Shown here: positions 1 to 6,805 of the stretch, one piece after another
Layout: each line of letters begins with the position of its first letter
How positions within the stretch are numbered: the first letter of the stretch is position 1
Origin: an uncultured Ruminococcus sp.
Lineage (GTDB): Bacteria > Bacillota_A > Clostridia > Oscillospirales > Ruminococcaceae
NCBI GenBank assembly: GCA_902782875.1
Contig: CACZPE010000446.1
Span: forward strand, 1 to 6,805
Direction: 5' to 3'
Length of the DNA: 6,805 bases
Notes under the pieces: generated by a model
The model's input: only the letters and a program-made list of their open reading frames with translations
Told to the model about the DNA's origin: nothing
The model's database searches: none
Translations under genes and position numbers: made by a program

Positions 1-181
1 GACTAAGCTGATTTTTGATATGAACGGCCTCGAATATATCTCATCTGCAGGACTTCGTGTACTGCTTACAGCACAGAAGATCATGAGCAGACAGGAAGGC
101 ATGACAGTAAAGAACTGCAGTGCAGAGATCAGGGAGATATTTGATATCACCGGATTTACAGATATTCTTACAATCGAATAA
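1..181 (+). CDS. STAS-domain anti-sigma factor antagonist, C-terminal part (5' end outside window)
   Basis: The open frame begins at base 2 as a continuing codon and runs to TAA at 179-181, giving 59 residues that start TKLIFDMNGLEYISSAGLRV. This matches the second half of the STAS fold of SpoIIAA/RsbV-type anti-anti-sigma factors. It has the strand-turn-helix segment 'D.NGLEYISSAGLRVLL' and the late 'REIFDITGFTDIL' segment, which corresponds to 'KRLFDMSGLFKII' in SpoIIAA. The second Ser of 'ISSAG' aligns with the phosphorylated Ser58 of B. subtilis SpoIIAA, so the site used for kinase control is kept. In this family the unphosphorylated protein binds the anti-sigma kinase and frees a sigma factor, or acts in a comparable partner switch. 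The next gene starts 12 bases downstream and encodes a divergent kinase-like protein, which suggests the two are partners. The N-terminal half and promoter are not in view. The family call is firm; the sigma factor or other target is unknown. Confidence 0.9.
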   Translation, partial: TKLIFDMNGLEYISSAGLRVLLTAQKIMSRQEGMTVKNCSAEIREIFDITGFTDILTIE

Positions 182-193
182 GGAGCAGAAAAT

Positions 194-832
194 ATGAAAA
201 CTGATGTTATTACTATATACAGCGATATGAAAGGTACAGACCAGGCTATGAAGCAGTCTGAGCTCTTTGCGGCTTATAACGGACTGACAGGCAGGAATGC
301 CATGCATCTTCGTCTGCTCACCGAGGAAACGATTAGTATGGTACATGGTATCCTCAGCGATTTCAGCGGCGATTTCTGGATAGAGAGCAAAAAGACCGAT
401 AAAGGACTGTTGTGCCGTATATGTGTCCAGGCAAACAAATCTGTGGATGATATACAGGAAGACAGACTCCTCAGCGTATCAAGCTCAGGCAGAAACGAGG
501 AAGCAAGAGGCATCATGGGCAAGATACGCCAGATACTCCGCTGGAGCGTTCAGAGCAGCGGAACTCCCGAGACCGATGAGGAATGGGAGAGGTCGTATAT
601 GTGGTATGCTATGGGCACGAGCACCTCAGATATGATGAACGATTATGATTATGGTATGGCAAATTACTGGTCACTGCAGCAGTATCGTGACGCTCTAGAA
701 ATGAAAGAAGACAAGGGAGAGGCTCACGATGAACTTGAAAAGTCTATCGTTGCAAAAATTGCCGATGAAGTAAAGGTCGGAATAAGCAGCGGCAAGGCTG
801 AGGTCATAATTGAGAAGCTGTTTGCTATATGA
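194..832 (+). CDS. Divergent RsbW/SpoIIAB-like (HATPase-fold) protein, putative STAS partner
   Basis: Encodes 212 residues from ATG at 194, with AGGAG at 181-185 eight bases upstream and overlapping the stop region of the STAS gene, so the two are almost certainly co-transcribed and perhaps translationally coupled. The residue 38-53 segment (HLRLLTEETISMVHGI) resembles the N-box helix of anti-sigma kinases. It is followed by a strand pair at about 60-80 (FWIES...GLLCRICVQA) and by ARGIMGKIRQIL (104-115), which resembles the 'GRGL..IRQL' segment around the G2 box. The N-box Asn is absent, the Asp-x-Gly-x-Gly G1 box is replaced by QANKSVD, and the first Gly of G2 is Ala, so ATP binding is doubtful. 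Residues 125-212 form an extension not usual for RsbW, with an aromatic patch (WERSYMWYAMG, YDYGMANYW) and a charged C-terminal helix. No signal peptide or membrane segment is seen. The fold assignment rests on motif resemblance plus gene order. It may instead be a family of unknown function. Confidence 0.6.
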   Translation: MKTDVITIYSDMKGTDQAMKQSELFAAYNGLTGRNAMHLRLLTEETISMVHGILSDFSGDFWIESKKTDKGLLCRICVQANKSVDDIQEDRLLSVSSSGRNEEARGIMGKIRQILRWSVQSSGTPETDEEWERSYMWYAMGTSTSDMMNDYDYGMANYWSLQQYRDALEMKEDKGEAHDELEKSIVAKIADEVKVGISSGKAEVIIEKLFAI

Positions 833-848
833 ACATTGGATAAGAAAT

Positions 849-890
849 ACCCGCAGACAACCGTGAACGTTGTCTGCGGGTTTTACTTTT
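849..890 (+). terminator. Rho-independent terminator of the STAS/RsbW-like operon
   Basis: A perfect 13-bp stem (849-861 with 869-881; core CCCGCAGACAAC / GTTGTCTGCGGG) with a 7-base loop is followed on the plus strand by TTTTACTTTTT. It begins 16 bases after the TGA of the 194-832 gene. The minus-strand epimerase gene ends at 900, so the hairpin may also stop transcripts from that side, but the U-tract in that direction is weak. Confidence 0.92.
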
Positions 891-899
891 TATGCATGA

Positions 900-1799
900 T
901 CATTTCATGTTTTCATTTATAAAATCAAGCAGCGGTTTGCGCCTTATGGATTCTTTATTGTGGCAGTACCACTTGTAGGAACTGCAGAGACCGTCATAGA
1001 GAGGGGTAAGTTCGCTCATAAGCGAACGCTGTTTATTGACATCAAGGATATATGCATAGTCAAGAAAAGGAAAATAACTTCTCTGGGGAATGCTTCCGTC
1101 TGTATATATAAGCTCCGGTTCCTTTCCGAGCACCTTGTAGCAAAGCTTTACCCATTGCACGATATCGACAGTTTCAGTGTTTCCTGTATTGAATATACGT
1201 TCTGAAGGCTGTTTTTCTATGAGTATTTCCATAAACCTGCAGAGATCGTCTATATGGAAAAACTGCAGGGGCATCTTTCCGTCTTTCGGTATATAGAACG
1301 GCAGATCTTTTTCAGCACATTCAAAAACAAATGCTTCGCGGTACAGATTATTCATCGGGCCGTACAGATACGGCGGTCTGATGATATAGTAGTTGCTGAA
1401 GTTTTCGGTCACATACTTTTCTGCAGCGATCTTATTTGTGCCGTAATCTCCCCAGTATATATTTGCTCCGCATTCCTGATCTTCTCTGAAGGGCTGGGAA
1501 AGAGTTTCGGGATATACTGCGCTTGAACTGAGGAAAATATATGTTCCGTAACTGCTCAGAGCTTTATGAAGACAGCTTACATCGTCGGCGTTATATGCTG
1601 TTATGTCAAGTACTGCATCAAAACTGTATTCTTTCAGTGTGTCACCGAGGGCATGCCTGTCAGCTTTTATATGTACTACATTCTCTGACTGAGGGTGGGT
1701 GCCGCGGTTGAGAACATATACGGTATGTCCCTTTCTGATGAAGTATTTTGCAGTATATCTGCTTGCGAATACGGTTCCGCCTGTGATGAGTATATCCAT
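900..1799 (-). CDS. NAD(P)-dependent epimerase/dehydratase family protein (extended SDR)
   Basis: Encodes 299 residues of the extended short-chain dehydrogenase fold, the class that includes nucleotide-sugar epimerases, dehydratases and reductases. The N-terminal Rossmann motif is ILITGGTVFASR (residues 3-14), the GGxxFxxR variant in which the last Gly of the usual GxxGxxG is Ser. NRG at 31-33 ends the second strand and would favour NADP binding (inference). The catalytic set is visible as a Ser run at 91-93 (LSSSAVYP) and Y119-x3-K123 (YGTNK). RPPYLYGP (141-148) and FFHIDDLCRF (180-189) are typical of the substrate-binding half. A cytosolic enzyme is expected, as no signal peptide is seen. 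AGGAGG sits a few bases upstream of the ATG, so the start is secure. The gene is monocistronic, divergent from the 1931 gene and convergent with the 194-832 gene. No sugar biosynthesis neighbours reveal the substrate, so only the family is assigned. Confidence 0.85.
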   Translation of the reverse strand: MDILITGGTVFASRYTAKYFIRKGHTVYVLNRGTHPQSENVVHIKADRHALGDTLKEYSFDAVLDITAYNADDVSCLHKALSSYGTYIFLSSSAVYPETLSQPFREDQECGANIYWGDYGTNKIAAEKYVTENFSNYYIIRPPYLYGPMNNLYREAFVFECAEKDLPFYIPKDGKMPLQFFHIDDLCRFMEILIEKQPSERIFNTGNTETVDIVQWVKLCYKVLGKEPELIYTDGSIPQRSYFPFLDYAYILDVNKQRSLMSELTPLYDGLCSSYKWYCHNKESIRRKPLLDFINENMK

Positions 1800-1847
1800 T
1801 TTTTCCTCCTTATTACGCAGCCTGGAACGGCATAATATCTACTATAC

Positions 1848-1856
1848 ATTATATCA
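1848..1856 (-). promoter_or_regulatory. Extended -10 promoter for the epimerase gene
   Basis: On the minus strand TATAAT occupies 1853-1848, preceded by TG plus one base (the TGn extended -10, TG at 1856-1855). No good -35 lies 17 bases upstream, where the sequence is GCAAAA. Initiation would fall near 1841, giving a leader of about 41 bases that ends in AAGGAGG before the ATG at 1799. The upstream part overlaps the plus-strand promoter at 1865-1893. Confidence 0.5.
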
Positions 1857-1864
1857 TATGATAA

Positions 1865-1893
1865 TTGACTTTTTGCCAAAGGTGTGTTATAAT
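1865..1893 (+). promoter_or_regulatory. Sigma-A-type promoter for the 1931-2503 gene
   Basis: TTGACT (1865-1870), a 17-base spacer and TATAAT (1888-1893), with an extended -10 TG at 1885-1886. Transcription would begin near 1900, leaving a leader of about 30 bases. It is strong by sequence and drives a single gene. Confidence 0.82.
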
Positions 1894-1917
1894 CCGGTAA
1901 ACAATATCATACAGAAC

Positions 1918-1921
1918 GGAG
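1918..1921 (+). promoter_or_regulatory. Ribosome binding site that decides the 1931 start
   Basis: GGAG at 1918-1921 lies nine bases before ATG at 1931. An in-frame ATG at 1922 directly abuts the GGAG, with no spacing, so it is an unlikely start. The 1931 ATG is preferred. Confidence 0.75.
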
Positions 1922-1930
1922 ATGATCATA

Positions 1931-2503
1931 ATGCACGATATATGTCTGAACATCCATTACTCTGCACCTGAAGAGGTATGGAAAATGATAGAGGAAGTAT
2001 ATCACTCGATGGATTACTGGTACGGCTATGAAAATGACGGCTGCCCGTCATGGAGAGGCGAGGCGATAGATCTCTGCGCTTCTGCAGAGCCCGGCGGAAT
2101 ACAGATCAGCGGAGAGATGCCTGAAGAAATATGGGAAAGATGGTATGAACAACTGAAGTCCAGACTTACGGAAAAGCTGGGGTATGAGATAGGTGATGTC
2201 TGTGACGGGTATGAATTCAAATACTGGACTCCTTTTGAGAAGAATTATTCTGATATAAAAAATATAGATGCCGAGAAAATCGTATTCAATGATCTGTCCA
2301 TGTTCTGCTGGTCGTACTTCCGTGAATACAAAAGAGATATAACCGCTGCACGTCCTTATTATGTATTCAGTTCACCTATGATAGAACTGCGGATTTATTT
2401 TGATAATAACGGTATTTTCGGAAAAACCAGGCTCAGACAGGATTTTCATGATCTTGAGACTAAATTGAATGATATCGGGATAAAAACACTTGATCTTTCC
2501 TGA
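1931..2503 (+). CDS. Hypothetical protein, 190 residues, no family recognised
   Basis: An intact gene with its own promoter (1865-1893), a GGAG site nine bases upstream, and a terminator just after the TGA, so it forms a one-gene unit. I do not recognise the family. The product looks soluble and acidic, with no signal peptide or membrane segment. It is rich in aromatics (7 Trp, 15 Tyr) and has five scattered Cys without a CxxC pair. The N-terminal half alternates predicted helices (PEEVWKMIEEVYHSM; PEEIWERWYEQLKSRLTEKLGYEI) with a Gly-rich turn region (CPSWRGEAIDLCASAEPGGIQISGE). The C-terminal half has strand-like stretches (YYVFSSPMIELRIYF) and a final helix (RQDFHDLETKLNDIGI). Codon use resembles its neighbours and gives no sign of recent transfer. 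Small orphan proteins of this kind can be immunity or accessory proteins, but nothing here shows that. Confidence 0.8.
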   Translation: MHDICLNIHYSAPEEVWKMIEEVYHSMDYWYGYENDGCPSWRGEAIDLCASAEPGGIQISGEMPEEIWERWYEQLKSRLTEKLGYEIGDVCDGYEFKYWTPFEKNYSDIKNIDAEKIVFNDLSMFCWSYFREYKRDITAARPYYVFSSPMIELRIYFDNNGIFGKTRLRQDFHDLETKLNDIGIKTLDLS

Positions 2504-2510
2504 TATAACA

Positions 2511-2540
2511 AAAGCGCAGTACCCGAAAGTACTGCGCTTT
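2511..2540. terminator. Bidirectional rho-independent terminator between convergent genes
   Basis: A perfect 12-bp stem (2511-2522 AAAGCGCAGTAC with 2529-2540) and a six-base loop. It is followed by TTTATTAGT on the plus strand and by TTTTGTTAT on the minus strand, counting the U-run within the stem end. It lies between the stop of the hypothetical gene (2503) and the stop of glnN (2558) and can serve both. Confidence 0.88.
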
Positions 2541-2557
2541 ATTAGTAGTATTATAGA

Positions 2558-4660
2558 TTATACCCTGAACATAAGATCGCCGTATGTGGGGAAGGGCCAG
2601 AGATTTTCGGGAACGTTCATCTCAAGCTCATCTGCAACAGCACGAAGGCTCTGCATGGATGAGAATATCACATCACGGTAATATCTTGCGCACTCGATGA
2701 CCTCGCTCTTGTCGCAAGCGCCGATAACCTTTGAATCAAGATCATCTATTGCCTGAGAAATAGAAGTGTTGAGCTCGGTAACCTTGTCTGCGATCTTCTT
2801 TTCAAGTGTGTAGTCAAGGCCTGCTTCCTTCTTGGCAACGATGGAATCAGCAAGCTTTGAAGCATAGGAAAGACCTGCAGGGAGTATCTGCTTCTTTGCC
2901 ATATCGAGCATAGTAAGTGCTTCGATGTTGATTATGCGGGAATAGTTCTCAAGCAGAGCATCTGTTCTTGCCTGGAGCTCTGTTTTGGTATATACCTTGA
3001 ATGTGTCAAAGAGCTTGACATTCTTTTCATCGGTATAATGGGGCATAGCATCAACAGTTGAAACATAGTTGGGAAGGCCTCTTCTTGCAGCTTCCTCTAC
3101 CCAGCTTGCATCATAACCGTTGCCATTGAAGATAACTCTCTTATGCTTCTTGAGAGTCTCAACAAGAAGGCTGTTGAGATCCTTCTTGAAATCAGAGGAG
3201 TTCTCGAGCTTGTCAGCAAATTCCTTGAGAGAGTTTGCAACGATGGTGTTGAGTATGGTATTTGTGCAGGAAACGGTATCGGAAGAACCAAGGCTTCTGA
3301 ACTCGAACTTGTTTCCTGTGAATGCGAAGGGAGAAGTTCTGTTGCGGTCTGTGTTGTCCTTCGGGAAGTTGGGAAGTGCTTCAACGGCAATAACAAATTC
3401 CTGCTGCTCGTTGGACTTTATCATTTCGCCTGTCTCGAGAGCGTCGAGTATTTCCTGAAGCTCAGTGCCCACAAATATGGAGATGATTGCGGGAGGAGCC
3501 TCGTTAGCGCCGAGACGGTGATCGTTGCTTGCAGATGCTACCGAAAGTCTGAGAAGGTCTGCATATTCGTCAACAGCCTTGATTATAGCAATAAGGAAGG
3601 TAAGGAACTGGATGTTGTCCTTGGGGCTGTCACCGGGATCGAGAAGGTTCTCGCCGAAGTTGGTGTTCATGGACCAGTTGTTGTGCTTACCGGAACCGTT
3701 AACACCTGCAAAGGGCTTTTCATGAAGCAGGCATACAAGACCGTGCTTGAGAGCAAGCTTCTTCATGATCTCCATTGTGAGAGCGTTCTGGTCTGCAGCC
3801 ACATTGGATGTTGTGAATATAGGAGCGAGCTCGTGCTGAGCGGGAGCAACCTCGTTATGTTCGGTCTTTGCACAGATGCCGAGCTTCCAGAGCTCTTCAT
3901 CAAGGTCCTTCATGTACTGATGTACTCTTTCCTTGATGTTGCCGTAGTAATGGTCATCAAGCTCCTGACCTCTGGGTGCCTTAGCACCGAAAAGTGTTCT
4001 GCCTGTGAACATGAGGTCTTTTCTCTGATCGTAGAGCTTCTTGTCAACAAGGAAGTATTCCTGCTCAGGACCAACTGTAGTGGTAACTCTTGTAGCGTTG
4101 GAACCGAAAAGCTTCAGGATTCTTACTGCCTGCTCGGAAAGAACTTCCATCGAACGGAGAAGGGGAGTCTTCTTATCGAGGATCTCGCCTGTATATGAGC
4201 AGAATGCTGTGGGGATGTAGAGTGTATCATCCTTTATGAATGCGGGGGAGGTAGGATCCCATGCGGTATATCCTCTTGCCTCAAAAGTAGCTCTGAGTCC
4301 GCCGGAGGGGAAGGATGAAGCGTCAGGCTCACCCTTGATGAGGTTTTTGCCCGAAAATTCCATTATTACCTTGCCGTCTGCTGTGGGAGCGATGAAAGAG
4401 TCATGCTTTTCAGCAGAGAAACCTGTAAGAGGATGGAACCAGTGTGTAAAGTGTGTGGCACCCTTTGATACAGCCCAGTCCTTCATAGCGGCTGCGATAA
4501 CGTCAGCAACGTCACTGTCGAGAGAGATACCGAGATTCTTGGTCTTGAGGAGTGCTTTGTATACATTCTTGGGAAGAAGATTCTTCATCGTATCCTCGTT
4601 GAATACATTGCATCCGAAGTAGTCGGGTACGTTTTTTACACCCTGCATAAATTCAGGCAT
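2558..4660 (-). CDS. glnN: Glutamine synthetase type III (GSIII)
   Basis: Encodes 700 residues, the usual size of GSIII, the large form found in Bacteroides, cyanobacteria and many Clostridia. It makes glutamine from glutamate, ammonia and ATP in the cytosol. Visible motifs in order: the GSIII N-terminal block (THWFHPLTG, 72-80), GPEQEYF (197-203) and NEVAPAQHE (269-277) carrying metal and glutamate ligands, [11 protein letters not shown] (320-330) in the nucleotide-binding region, [14 protein letters not shown] (379-392), [17 protein letters not shown] (439-455), and the GSIII-specific C-terminus [11 protein letters not shown] (688-698). All catalytic blocks are intact. AGGAGG (4668-4673) stands seven bases before the ATG. 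The gene has its own consensus promoter (4770-4798). Its leader of about 100 bases holds a terminator and two hexaloop hairpins (4718-4759), which suggests control by antitermination. The AspRS gene lies 210 bases upstream on the same strand, and a shared terminator follows at 2511-2540. Confidence 0.97.
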
Positions 4661-4675
4661 GATGATTCCTCCTTG

Positions 4676-4724
4676 AAAAATAAAAAGTCGCCGACAGGAT
4701 CACAGCGAAGTGATCATATCGGCG
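4676..4724 (-). terminator. Leader attenuator (intrinsic terminator) upstream of glnN
   Basis: In the minus-strand RNA the 5' arm (4724-4710) pairs with the 3' arm (4703-4689). CGCCGA pairs with UCGGCG, then come a U-G wobble, an A-U pair, one U/C mismatch and GAUCAC with GUGAUC, closed by the six-base loop UUCGCU. The stem is followed by AC, then UUUUU-A-UUUUU (4686-4676). The U-tract ends three bases before AGGAGG of glnN, so termination here would block glnN completely. The first bases of the 5' arm are shared with the hairpin at 4718-4735, making the two structures mutually exclusive. Confidence 0.88.
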
Positions 4725-4759
4725 CCATTGCCTATCAATATTCATGGTCTTCCTTGACC
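4718..4759 (-). promoter_or_regulatory. Tandem hexaloop hairpins: predicted ANTAR-protein antitermination element of glnN
   Basis: Read as minus-strand RNA, hairpin 1 is GGUC-AAGGAA-GACC (4759-4746). Hairpin 2 is AUAGGC-AAUGGC-GCCGAU (4735-4718), with one A/G mismatch below three G-C pairs. Both loops have six bases with A at position 1 and G at position 4, and the hairpins are ten bases apart. This is the dual-hairpin signature known for RNA targets of ANTAR-domain antiterminators, such as EutV targets. The 3' arm of hairpin 2 (4723-4718) is also part of the 5' arm of the terminator at 4689-4724, so protein-stabilised hairpin 2 would prevent termination. What is seen: the loops, stems and overlap. 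What is inferred: the ANTAR protein. A nitrogen-related ANTAR regulator (NitR) has been reported beside glnA in Clostridium. No such gene is in this window. Confidence 0.7.
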
Positions 4760-4769
4760 TTATGTGCGT

Positions 4770-4798
4770 ATTATACACCATGATATTTTCTTTGTCAA
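4770..4798 (-). promoter_or_regulatory. Consensus promoter of glnN
   Basis: On the minus strand TTGACA (4798-4793), a 17-base spacer and TATAAT (4775-4770) match the housekeeping consensus exactly. Initiation near 4763 places hairpin 1 of the leader only a few bases from the RNA 5' end. Just upstream of -35, an A-rich run on this strand (AAAAATAAAAAAAG, 4815-4802) resembles an UP element. Such a strong promoter ahead of a terminator fits control by attenuation rather than initiation. Confidence 0.9.
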
Positions 4799-4811
4799 GG
4801 GCTTTTTTTAT

Positions 4812-4843
4812 TTTTGCAGGATTTTACACAATTGTCTGCAAAA
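4812..4843. repeat. Inverted repeat between aspS and glnN
   Basis: TTTTGCAG (4812-4819) and CTGCAAAA (4836-4843) form perfect 8-base arms around a 16-base centre, which itself holds the palindrome ACAATTGT (4828-4835). It begins 28 bases after the aspS stop and ends just upstream of the glnN -35. No U-tract follows on either strand, so it is not a standard terminator. It could be an operator for glnN or a 3' end structure for aspS mRNA. The arms are seen; any function is inference. Confidence 0.45.
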
Positions 4844-4870
4844 CATGATATAACATTGTTGATTTTGCTG

Positions 4871-6187
4871 TCACGGGGTAAGTCTGGAAAGATCTCTCGG
4901 GAACATGGATGCCTGTCTTACGTTCTGCAGGCCGAGAAGCTTCATTACAAGCCTTTCGAGACCGATACCGAGACCGCCGTGAGGAGGCAGACCGTACTTG
5001 TGGCTCTCAAGATAATACTTGAAGTCATCAGGATCAAGACCCTGAGCTTTCATCTTTTCGAGCTGCTCGTTGTAGTCGTGAATACGCTGACCGCCTGTTG
5101 TGATCTCAAGACCTCTGAAAAGAAGGTCAAATTTGCATGCGGTCCTGGGGTCTTCTTTGTCATTCATAGCATAGAAGGGAGGCTTTGATGACGGGAAGTT
5201 TGTTACAAATATGAACTCAGTACCGTAGTTCTCCTTGGCCCAGTCACAGAGGAAGACCTCGTCCTCGGGCTCAAGATCGAATTTGTTCTTGGATTTGCTG
5301 CCCTTGATGAGAGCAACTGCATCTTCAAACTTTATAGCAGGTATCTCGGTTATCTCGGGGATGTCTGCACCGAGCATCTTTATCTCAGTTGCATAATTCT
5401 CCTTGAGATATTTCATAAGATAGCGGAGCATAGCAGTTTCCATATCCATAACATCGTACATGTCATTGATATAGCCCATCTCGAAGTCAAGACCGATATA
5501 CTCGTTGAGATGTCTTGATGTGGAGTGCTTCTCCGCACGGTATACGGGTGCTATCTCAAAGACCCTGTCGAAGAATGCCACAGCTGCCTGCTTGTAGAAC
5601 TGCGGGGACTGATTGAGAAAAGCCTCATTGTCAAAATAATCGAGACGGAATATATTCGCGCCGCCCTCTGCGCCCTGAGCAACTATCTTGGGAGTGTGTA
5701 TCTCTGTGAACTTGTTATCGAGCATGAACTGCCTGAAACCTGAAACTACACCCTCCTGGAATTTGAATACTGCTCTTTCCTGAGGATTTCTCAGAGCAAC
5801 GCTTCTGTTATCGAGATTTACATCGAGAGAGCAGCCGAGCTTCCATTTGCTTACGTGCAGGGGATAGTCAAAATCGGGCTTGTGAAGAAGCTCGATAGAA
5901 GAAAGTACGATCTCTATGCCTATCTTGGATCTTTCTTCCTCTCTGACAGTACCTGTTACCTTAACAAAGCAGCCTTCCTTTATACCGTCTGCTGAGCCTG
6001 CACATTTGTCTGCCGAATAAACCGACTGAATCACATATCTTCCCGTACGCAGGTGTATGAATGAGAAAGCACCCATATCATTTACCTTGTGAACGCACGC
6101 AGAAAAGCTTATATCACTGCCTACAGAGGCCTTTGCCTTTTCAAGGTCAAATTCCTCGAGCACCGAAGTGCCGCTGACTGTTTTCAT
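4871..6187 (-). CDS. aspS: Archaeal-type aspartyl-tRNA synthetase, probably nondiscriminating (aspartate--tRNA(Asp/Asn) ligase)
   Basis: Encodes 438 residues of a class IIb synthetase that charges tRNA with aspartate using ATP. An N-terminal OB-fold anticodon domain (about 20-105) precedes the catalytic core: motif 1 region HTPKIVAQGAEGG (164-176), QSPQFYKQ (193-200), motif 2 YRAEKHSTSRHLNEYIGLDFEM (216-237), and motif 3 GIGLERLVM (407-415), ending FPRDLSRLTP. EITTGGQRIHDY (361-372) and the short length without a GAD insertion mark the archaeal AspRS type, not the bacterial AspRS or an AsnRS. His33 aligns with the position where discriminating archaeal enzymes carry Trp, which favours use of tRNA(Asn) as well. 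Lys88 aligns with a Lys of discriminating enzymes, so the signature is mixed. In Clostridia such enzymes usually work with GatCAB, which converts Asp-tRNA(Asn) to Asn-tRNA(Asn) using glutamine. The start is set by AGGAGG at 6196-6201. An upstream in-frame ATG at 6220 has no such site. Confidence 0.93.
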   Translation of the reverse strand: MKTVSGTSVLEEFDLEKAKASVGSDISFSACVHKVNDMGAFSFIHLRTGRYVIQSVYSADKCAGSADGIKEGCFVKVTGTVREEERSKIGIEIVLSSIELLHKPDFDYPLHVSKWKLGCSLDVNLDNRSVALRNPQERAVFKFQEGVVSGFRQFMLDNKFTEIHTPKIVAQGAEGGANIFRLDYFDNEAFLNQSPQFYKQAAVAFFDRVFEIAPVYRAEKHSTSRHLNEYIGLDFEMGYINDMYDVMDMETAMLRYLMKYLKENYATEIKMLGADIPEITEIPAIKFEDAVALIKGSKSKNKFDLEPEDEVFLCDWAKENYGTEFIFVTNFPSSKPPFYAMNDKEDPRTACKFDLLFRGLEITTGGQRIHDYNEQLEKMKAQGLDPDDFKYYLESHKYGLPPHGGLGIGLERLVMKLLGLQNVRQASMFPRDLSRLTP

Positions 6188-6195
6188 CTTAAGAT

Positions 6196-6201
6196 CCTCC
6201 T
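6196..6201 (-). promoter_or_regulatory. Ribosome binding site that decides the aspS start
   Basis: AGGAGG on the minus strand lies eight bases before the ATG at 6187 and inside the longer frame that opens at 6220. This fixes the start at 6187 and gives an N-terminus (MKTVSGTSV) of normal length for the family. Confidence 0.88.
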
Positions 6202-6234
6202 GTATCACGTCTGATACCATATGGCACAGCTGTG
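6202..6234 (-). promoter_or_regulatory. Palindrome-rich aspS leader
   Basis: The leader of about 60 bases holds three dyads in a row: CACAGCTGTG (6225-6234), CCATATGG (6217-6224), and GTATCA-GACG-TGATAC (6202-6217, six-bp stem with four-base loop). The last directly abuts the AGGAGG at 6196-6201. It could shape translation initiation or be a protein site. There is no terminator and no room for a T-box. A regulatory role is only suggested by the structure. Confidence 0.4.
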
Positions 6235-6253
6235 ATGATAAATATACTAAATA

Positions 6254-6282
6254 ATTATAGCATATTATAAGGCTGTTGTCAA
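6254..6282 (-). promoter_or_regulatory. Consensus promoter of aspS
   Basis: On the minus strand TTGACA (6282-6277), a 17-base spacer and TATAAT (6259-6254), with TGn just before the -10. All twelve consensus bases are present. Initiation near 6247 gives a leader of about 60 bases. A/T-rich sequence lies upstream of the -35. Confidence 0.9.
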
Positions 6283-6323
6283 TTCAAAATTGATATACTA
6301 ATAACAGTATATGTGCTTGTTTA

Positions 6324-6358
6324 TTGCATACACAATATAGGCTCATATTGTCCTGCAA
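6324..6358. repeat. Dyad between the SDR terminator and the aspS promoter
   Basis: Outer arms TTGCA (6324-6328) and TGCAA (6354-6358) enclose inner arms ACAATAT (6332-6338) and ATATTGT (6345-6351) with a six-base centre. No U-tract follows. It sits about 40-75 bases upstream of the aspS -35, where an operator could lie. Nothing else is seen in this A/T-rich gap. Confidence 0.35.
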
Positions 6359-6375
6359 GCTTTTATATTCTTCAT

Positions 6376-6416
6376 AATGATAAAAGTAACCTCATCGGAT
6401 ATCCGTTGAGGTTACT
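6376..6416 (-). terminator. Rho-independent terminator of the SDR gene
   Basis: The 10-bp arms AGTAACCTCA (6385-6394) and TGAGGTTACT (6407-6416) enclose a further CGG-ATAT-CCG pairing (6396-6405) after one T/T mismatch. On the minus strand the stem is followed by TTTATCATTATG, a modest U-tract. It starts 16 bases after the SDR stop codon at 6432. Confidence 0.82.
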
Positions 6417-6431
6417 CATGATCTTATAACG

Positions 6432-6805
6432 TCATATGCATGTATATCCGCCGTCGATGGGAAGTATAACTCCCGTCACATAGGATGCCTCGTCACTTGC
6501 GAGGAATATCGCACCGGCGTTGAGCTCGCCCTCTTTGCCGTATCTGCCGAGGGGAACGGTAGCTTTCATATATGCTGTGAAAGCATCGGTATCAAGTGTC
6601 TCCTGTGTGAGCTCAGTTGCGAAATATCCCGGGCATATCGCGTTGCAGGTGATGTTGTACTTTGCAAGCTCTGCTGCAACAGCTCTTGTGAAGTTTACCA
6701 CGCCGCCCTTTGATGTGTGATAAGCGATTGTGTCGATAGCTGTATTTCCTACAAGTCCGTACATGGATGCTATATTTATGATCCTGCCGTAGTTGTTCTT
6801 TTTCA
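6432..6805 (-). CDS. Short-chain dehydrogenase/reductase (SDR), C-terminal part; gluconate 5-dehydrogenase-like
   Basis: The open frame enters from the right edge (first full codon at 6803, two bases inside) and ends at TGA 6434-6432, giving 123 residues. It holds the catalytic half of a classical NAD(P)H-dependent SDR: NYGRIINIASMYG with the catalytic Ser (about residue 13 of the visible part), Y-H-T-S-K (Tyr-x3-Lys), the NAICPGYFATELT loop after strand six, PLGRYGKEGEL, and the terminal ASYVTGVILPIDGGYT block that closes most classical SDRs. The PGYFATELT...TVPLGRYGK wording is close to gluconate 5-dehydrogenase/2-deoxy-D-gluconate 3-dehydrogenase-type enzymes, which act in sugar-acid use. 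FabG-like 3-oxoacyl-ACP reductase remains possible. The cofactor-binding N-terminus, start and upstream neighbours lie outside the window, so substrate specificity is unresolved. A terminator follows the gene, separating it from aspS. Confidence 0.9.
   Translation of the reverse strand, partial: KKNNYGRIINIASMYGLVGNTAIDTIAYHTSKGGVVNFTRAVAAELAKYNITCNAICPGYFATELTQETLDTDAFTAYMKATVPLGRYGKEGELNAGAIFLASDEASYVTGVILPIDGGYTCI

Follow-up and report, generated by a model that had tools for sequence, protein, structure and literature searches.

We describe the leader of a glutamine synthetase gene in a stretch of 6,805 nucleotides from an uncultured Ruminococcus sp. (assembly GCA_902782875.1, contig CACZPE010000446.1, positions 1 to 6,805), which as a whole is called the window in the following. 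The gene, glnN, encodes a type III glutamine synthetase (GSIII) whose product matches the Pfam families GSIII_N (1.2e-79), Gln-synt_C-ter and Gln-synt_C. Bacterial promoters have the consensus TTGACA and TATAAT with a spacer of 17 nucleotides; the glnN promoter follows it exactly, and the leader downstream is about 103 nucleotides long (Table 1). The leader contains two hairpins, P1 and P2, each with a loop of six bases (a hexaloop) that has A at position 1 and G at position 4 (A1/G4), an intrinsic terminator of -23.1 kcal/mol followed by UUUUUAUUUUU, and the Shine-Dalgarno sequence of glnN. The promoter and the two hexaloop hairpins had been recognized in the same way in an earlier reading of the bare sequence (the original prediction), which let the U tract end three bases before AGGAGG; we count two. 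It is highly probable that this leader is a nitrogen-responsive transcription attenuator in which ANTAR-type antitermination acts on P2.

Table 1. Parts of the glnN leader and the gene behind it, in window coordinates.
Feature	Position	Strand	Basis
-35 box TTGACA	4793..4798	minus	sequence and promoter scoring
-10 box TATAAT, 17-nucleotide spacer to the -35 box	4770..4775	minus	sequence and promoter scoring
Predicted transcription start	about 4763	minus	placed from the promoter
P1 hairpin GGUC-AAGGAA-GACC, A1/G4 hexaloop	4746..4759	minus	sequence, folding, shuffles
Linker between P1 and P2, 13 nucleotides	4733..4745	minus	folding
P2 hairpin GGC-AAUGGC-GCC, A1/G4 hexaloop, common antiterminator element	4721..4732	minus	folding, covariation, model match
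Intrinsic terminator, 8-bp outer and 6-bp inner stem, U tract	4676..4724	minus	folding, model match
Shine-Dalgarno sequence AGGAGG of glnN	4668..4673	minus	sequence
glnN, GSIII, 700 residues	2558..4660	minus	open reading frame and Pfam

P2 shares bases with the 5' arm of the terminator, namely 4724-4721, i.e. its last loop base and its 3' arm. The larger overlap that had been proposed earlier, 4724-4718, is reached only when extra lower-stem pairs are counted. These pairs follow a plan, a 1x1 mismatch and two further pairs, that can indeed be drawn for both P1 and P2, but since they are missing from the minimum-energy structures we give the common plan no weight. The stretch 4763-4661 folds with z = -2.9, and none of 200 shuffles folds as well. 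Folding of the growing transcript, as prefixes of increasing length sampled every 4 nucleotides, gave the following order: P1 is present at 18 nucleotides, then P2 forms, and then the terminator replaces P2, whose probability is 0.75-0.98 at the sampled prefixes of 46-70 nucleotides and 0 from 74 nucleotides on. P2 and the terminator are mutually exclusive in this predicted folding. A search of the whole window against Rfam 15, at E-values up to 10, gave five weak matches, none of them at the leader.

P2 and the terminator are conserved upstream of glnN in related bacteria. One genome per species was scanned for GlnN relatives; 138 were found, 80 loci were kept and 79 were read upstream (L011 was left out). 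A hairpin tip of the form C-AANGRY-G is present in 18 of the 20 closest leaders (L001-L021 without L011) as well as in the more distant L072, the terminators of L007, L015, L017, L020 and L021 being judged by eye; a loose scan for hexaloop-terminators did not return them. Because the leaders were chosen by a pattern with A1, A2 and G4, the invariance of the loop is partly built in, which does not hold for the absence of P1 discussed below. In 16 aligned leaders one pair of P2 is GC in nine and AU in seven, and the covariation score of P2 is reached by none of 500 shuffles. The same is true for the score of the terminator stem in 13 leaders, in which 93% of the cells are paired, as opposed to 36-56% when the stem is slid. 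A covariance model, R1, was built from 13 relatives' glnN leaders with the window excluded (its E-values are rough), and it ranks the window site first (31.1 bits, E 3.5e-5; next match 9.9 bits). Applied to 71 of the 80 loci, it recovers the 13 training leaders and L072; beyond these it gives a weak match in L038 and an echo on the reverse strand of L009, and it overlooks the hairpin-bearing leaders L001, L015, L017, L018 and L020.

A few further features of these glnN leaders may be mentioned here. The loose scan also flags hexaloop-terminators upstream of glnN in L022, L073 and L075. At about position 2353 of L075 a hairpin GAAC-AAGGAT-GTTC lies over a possible terminator, and the equivalent in L080 reads GAGGAT, i.e. 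it has no A1. In L012-L014 the glnN transcript is predicted to start within a near-palindromic AATATTACGGT(A/G)ATATT-like sequence at about 2405-2425.

The element is not confined to glnN. Model R1 was run on the genomes of 30 of the 80 loci, with at most 150 candidates scored per genome, and besides the 13 training sites it found 17 matches at E <= 0.1, of which 12 lie before the genes named here, two do not and three were left out. The ammonium transporter gene amtB is preceded by the element in L124, L138, L140 and L139 (the last with a P-II-like gene behind), and other copies stand before gltB (L125), a second glnN (L127), the gene of a urea-type binding protein (L137), an NAD synthase gene (L130) and circularly permuted (CP)-ATP-grasp genes (L128, L135, L151 and a remnant in L136). 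The matches in L126 and L129 do not look regulatory. Pfam backs the names in L125, L127, L130, L135, L137 and L151 and the other names were given by eye; in L137 the Pfam match is to a periplasmic-binding-protein and 'urea-type' was added by eye. Among the weaker matches (E 0.12-0.57), one precedes amtB (L134, Pfam) and two precede what by eye is gltB (L133, and L131 at the end of a contig). Matches at E <= 0.1 were also obtained in 13 of 20 genomes from the nearest relative's genus, and two of these matches, L150 and L152, lie before amtB, one of them by Pfam. A family-wide draw added 26 loci, of which 21 were retained: 19 stand, as judged by eye, before genes for GSIII (15), amtB (3) and CP-ATP-grasp (1), L167 and L169 being retained outside these 19. 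L163 and L178 were dropped as their hexaloop is not at the assumed place, and L165, L166 and L177 for a very short or implausible P2.

The CP-ATP-grasp genes behind the element (L135, L151, L128, L136 and L171) have no obvious tie to nitrogen; in L136 just the broken start of the gene is left, and for these loci Pfam covered L135 and L151. In L138 and L140 the terminator is capped by an A1/G4 hexaloop of its own, closed by 7 bp (AAUGAA and AAAGAU, respectively); this could be another ANTAR site, with the order of the two reversed.

The element co-occurs with ANTAR genes. The ANTAR domain (PF03861) was found in all 30 relatives' genomes and in none of 14 control genomes. Among 297 genomes of the family 217 encode ANTAR and 70 have a detected element (E <= 0.02); ANTAR is present in 69 of these 70 versus 148 of the 227 others. 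This family-wide search used stricter filters than the one in the 30 genomes, with 17 candidates scored per genome, and its element-negative genomes are partly false negatives because model R1 overlooks hairpin-bearing leaders. Of 79 element sites in family genomes, at least 16 have an ANTAR gene no more than 10 kb away. A glnA-like gene (glnA by eye) immediately precedes the ANTAR gene in about ten of the 30 genomes, and L101 shows a glnA-like gene, an ANTAR gene and then the element and amtB. Nine stretches with leaders of glnA-ANTAR operons were inspected by eye: there is a hexaloop-terminator in L188 and no clear one in the other eight. A dapF-like gene (dapF by eye) adjoins the ANTAR gene in nine (G003-G011) of the 14 genomes that are closest to the window. 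In 12 close relatives the best ANTAR gene and the glnN leader are on different contigs of draft genomes, and the regulator is probably not adjacent to glnN, in agreement with the unlinked regulator proposed originally.

The regulator probably differs from the response regulator that had been expected. One relative's ANTAR protein aligns at its ANTAR end with EutV (6wsh, 6ww6), 1s8n and the nitrate regulator 4akk. We read by eye the alignment column of the residue of 1s8n that we take to be its phospho-acceptor Asp: among 39 ANTAR matches in the 30 genomes 18 proteins were aligned, and this Asp is absent in 17 of them, L095 being the one that keeps it. In four ANTAR proteins scanned with Pfam, Response_reg was below the cut-off in one and gave no match in three. 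The receiver part of the relatives' ANTAR proteins is degenerate by sequence. The absence of the Asp makes a phosphorylated response regulator of the classical type unlikely, and the degeneracy of the receiver points to a partner protein or a small molecule as the probable activator in place of phosphorylation.

The original prediction saw P1 and P2 as a dual unit that related leaders would keep. This holds for P2, whose A1/G4 loop is retained, but not for P1, of which the other leaders examined show no counterpart. When the 31 nucleotides between the predicted start and P2 of the window are shuffled with their dinucleotides preserved, a P1-like hexaloop arises with a frequency of 1.2% (at least four Watson-Crick pairs), 2.9% (at least four pairs with G-U allowed) or 4.7% (at least three Watson-Crick pairs). 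Between the predicted start and P2, an A1/G4 hexaloop with at least three pairs is absent from all 38 other leaders scored (0.5 expected by shuffles), and the 21 retained family leaders likewise show no P1 equivalent; among closer kin, the leader DNA was searched in 20 genomes of the genus and three matched, none with P1. There is also little room for such a hairpin. Of 60 distinct leaders including the window (L146 was dropped as a duplicate), 53 have a strong promoter (score of at least 12 of 14) with a median distance of 8 nucleotides between the predicted start and P2, and 37 of the 53 have fewer than the 14 nucleotides that a hexaloop hairpin of 4 bp needs at minimum. With the promoter ignored, the 45 nucleotides before P2 hold a hexaloop with at least four pairs in 5 of 59 leaders (2.7 expected) and with at least three pairs in 8 of 59 (7.0 expected); the former five lie, by eye, wholly or partly upstream of the predicted start. 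Since the other leaders examined show no P1 and most of those with a strong promoter leave no room for it, we take the common element to be one hexaloop only, close to the predicted 5' end of the RNA. A P1 displaced to the other side of P2 was also considered and rejected as a general feature, as a second hexaloop downstream of P2 occurs in 11 of 58 leaders as compared to 6.1 expected.

What P1 does in the window can be read in several ways. This lineage may have acquired it as a recruitment hairpin, it may have arisen by chance, or it may belong to the start site of a leader open reading frame. Such a frame would have 30 codons (4745-4653, minus strand), beginning with the ATG at 4745, running through the terminator and stopping 8 nucleotides inside glnN; AAGGA in the loop of P1 is a possible Shine-Dalgarno sequence for it. 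We speculate that the role of this additional hairpin may be recruitment.

According to our preferred reading, RNA polymerase would start at about 4763, and P2 would fold before the terminator. Unless held, P2 would give way to the terminator, so that an abortive leader of about 88 nucleotides and termination would be the default. Under nitrogen shortage, the A1/G4 hexaloop of P2 would be bound by an ANTAR protein whose gene lies elsewhere; this protein would keep the 3' arm of P2 from the terminator, and the polymerase would continue into glnN. Sequence and comparison bear out the layout of the leader, the predicted exclusion between P2 and the terminator, the conservation of P2, the relatives' nitrogen genes behind the element and the co-occurrence with ANTAR. 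The binding of the ANTAR protein, the direction of the response and the signal are what we infer from the sequences, the ANTAR gene acting on the window leader being deduced from the genomes of relatives.

This last point weighs against the reading, and so do a number of others. Two of the 20 closest glnN leaders, L016 and L019, are without the element. R. flavefaciens-type glnN loci yielded no further element, either by model R1 in the 71 loci or by reading the leaders, and the genomes of this type that were tested do encode ANTAR. Two of the four P2 pairs are invariant in the 16 leaders, and some covariation measures do not stand out from shuffles: the number of P2 pairs with double changes was reached by 311 of 500 shuffles and that of further pair types by 468, the corresponding figures for the terminator being 23 and 163 of 500. 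The Fisher p of 3e-10 for the co-occurrence of element and ANTAR is too small because the genomes are related. The literature also has to be considered. In the eut leaders of Enterococcus faecalis the natural linkers have 5-12 nucleotides, and lengths of 14 or 3 sharply lowered the induction of eutP (PMC3369931), so the 13-nucleotide linker of the window falls between the natural lengths and the failing 14. EutV, the best-studied ANTAR protein, requires both hexaloops in vivo, and the linker length counts (PMC3369931, PMC8934654), whereas the relatives show one hexaloop.

One alternative is a classical two-hexaloop switch of the kind originally offered, which would depend on P1 as well as P2 and be bound at both by a phosphorylated response regulator. 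In its favour, both loops are A1/G4 hexaloops, P1 has a low probability of arising by chance and the linker is near the eut range. Nevertheless we find this explanation doubtful, given that the other leaders examined have no P1 between the predicted start and P2, that most strong-promoter leaders are too short before P2 to accommodate one, and that the receiver Asp is missing from nearly all ANTAR proteins aligned. ANTAR antitermination as originally predicted is supported for P2 and the terminator, by the kept loop bases, covariation, nitrogen genes downstream and ANTAR co-occurrence, but the dual hexaloop is not supported as the common unit. The shortness of the leaders also bears on the idea that P1 belongs to the start site of the leader reading frame, whose translation would influence the terminator. 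This frame does cross the terminator and ends inside glnN; the same 37 leaders are too short for such a start, although no search was aimed at leader-frame conservation, and the frame shows no codon enrichment by eye. We regard this explanation as improbable.

Finally, P2 might be an accident at a constitutive or partial terminator, its A1/G4 loop being meaningless. In favour of this, the terminator is strong by itself, and the 5' arms of many terminators allow a small hairpin to be drawn; among 111 sequences the loose scan marked 72 places, many of them clearly unrelated. An accident, however, would not explain that the 5'-arm bases of P2, which lie outside the terminator, covary with the 3' arm, nor that nitrogen genes repeatedly have the element in front of them and that its occurrence follows that of ANTAR genes, and we give this explanation hardly any credence. 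Attenuation through P2 and an ANTAR protein is the reading we retain.

It is useful to compare this system with ANTAR systems already described. It resembles the EutV/eutP-type leaders of E. faecalis in that an A1/G4 P2 lies over an intrinsic terminator, with a P1 as well in the window, and in that the relatives encode PF03861. It differs from them in the single hexaloop of the relatives, close to the predicted start in the strong-promoter leaders, in the absence of the phospho-acceptor Asp in 17 of the 18 proteins, and in the genes downstream, which serve nitrogen assimilation here and ethanolamine use there. AmiR is an ANTAR protein with a pseudo-receiver, and the relatives' ANTAR proteins are similar to it as they have a receiver-like domain and no phosphorylation site. 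In Clostridium, nitR is linked to glnA. NitR has been proposed to control ammonia assimilation by antitermination in Clostridium (PMC4676874). The ANTAR gene following a glutamine synthetase gene in about ten relatives is a similar arrangement; the dapF-like neighbour in the genomes closest to the window is not, and the target here is GSIII.

ANTAR control of glutamine synthetase genes has already been described in general terms (PMC3369931), and a nitR antiterminator of ammonia assimilation is known in Clostridium (PMC4676874). The ANTAR RNA regulons of Ramesh et al. 2012 include matches before glutamate and glutamine synthases, ammonium and urea transporters and P-II genes (PMC3369931), the same gene themes as in our relatives' set. 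Their search motif had two hairpins of at least 3 bp each (PMC3369931), and because two were needed, single-hexaloop leaders would tend to escape it, even though individual leaders of this kind may be among the predictions. The crystal structure of EutV shows a dimer on a single hexaloop, EutV binds isolated single hexaloops, and the role of single-hexaloop motifs was left open, with a call for more work on them (PMC8934654). Two other departures are noted in the same paper: EutX has a single hexaloop added, and stem-loops of M. tuberculosis deviate at times from the dual motif. Unlike the relatives' set, these cases do not form a group of terminator-overlapping leaders of nitrogen genes. Our literature search, weak in that subscription journals are thinly covered and sources were partly available, found no report of single-hexaloop, pseudo-receiver ANTAR leaders across nitrogen genes. 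The window leader alone, with its P1, would add a member to the known ANTAR leaders; the single-hexaloop set would be a variant of them.

On balance we lean towards a more general view, namely that Oscillospiraceae-type Clostridia use nitrogen-related ANTAR antitermination through a single hexaloop at the 5' end and a pseudo-receiver that works without phosphorylation, that the need of EutV for two hexaloops is not general, and that P1 of the window is a later addition. The relatives' leaders are natural single-hexaloop candidates, with the window leader as the natural comparison that carries P1, and because these candidates stand before defined nitrogen genes the single-hexaloop question is directly testable. 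The set also hints at a way in which ammonia assimilation may be regulated in Clostridia of the gut and rumen.

The remainder of the window can be described briefly. On the plus strand, the 3' part of a gene for a STAS-domain protein (2-181) is followed by an open reading frame of 212 residues (194-832) and, further on, by one of 193 residues (1922-2503), neither of which has a Pfam match. A gene for a class II (D, K, N) tRNA synthetase (4871-6220, minus strand) lies upstream of glnN on the same strand. Between the frame at 1922-2503 and the convergent glnN, a hairpin flanked by T runs (2507-2563), with weak sub-threshold Rfam matches to sbrA, Atu_C9 and FasX, is likely to be a two-way terminator.
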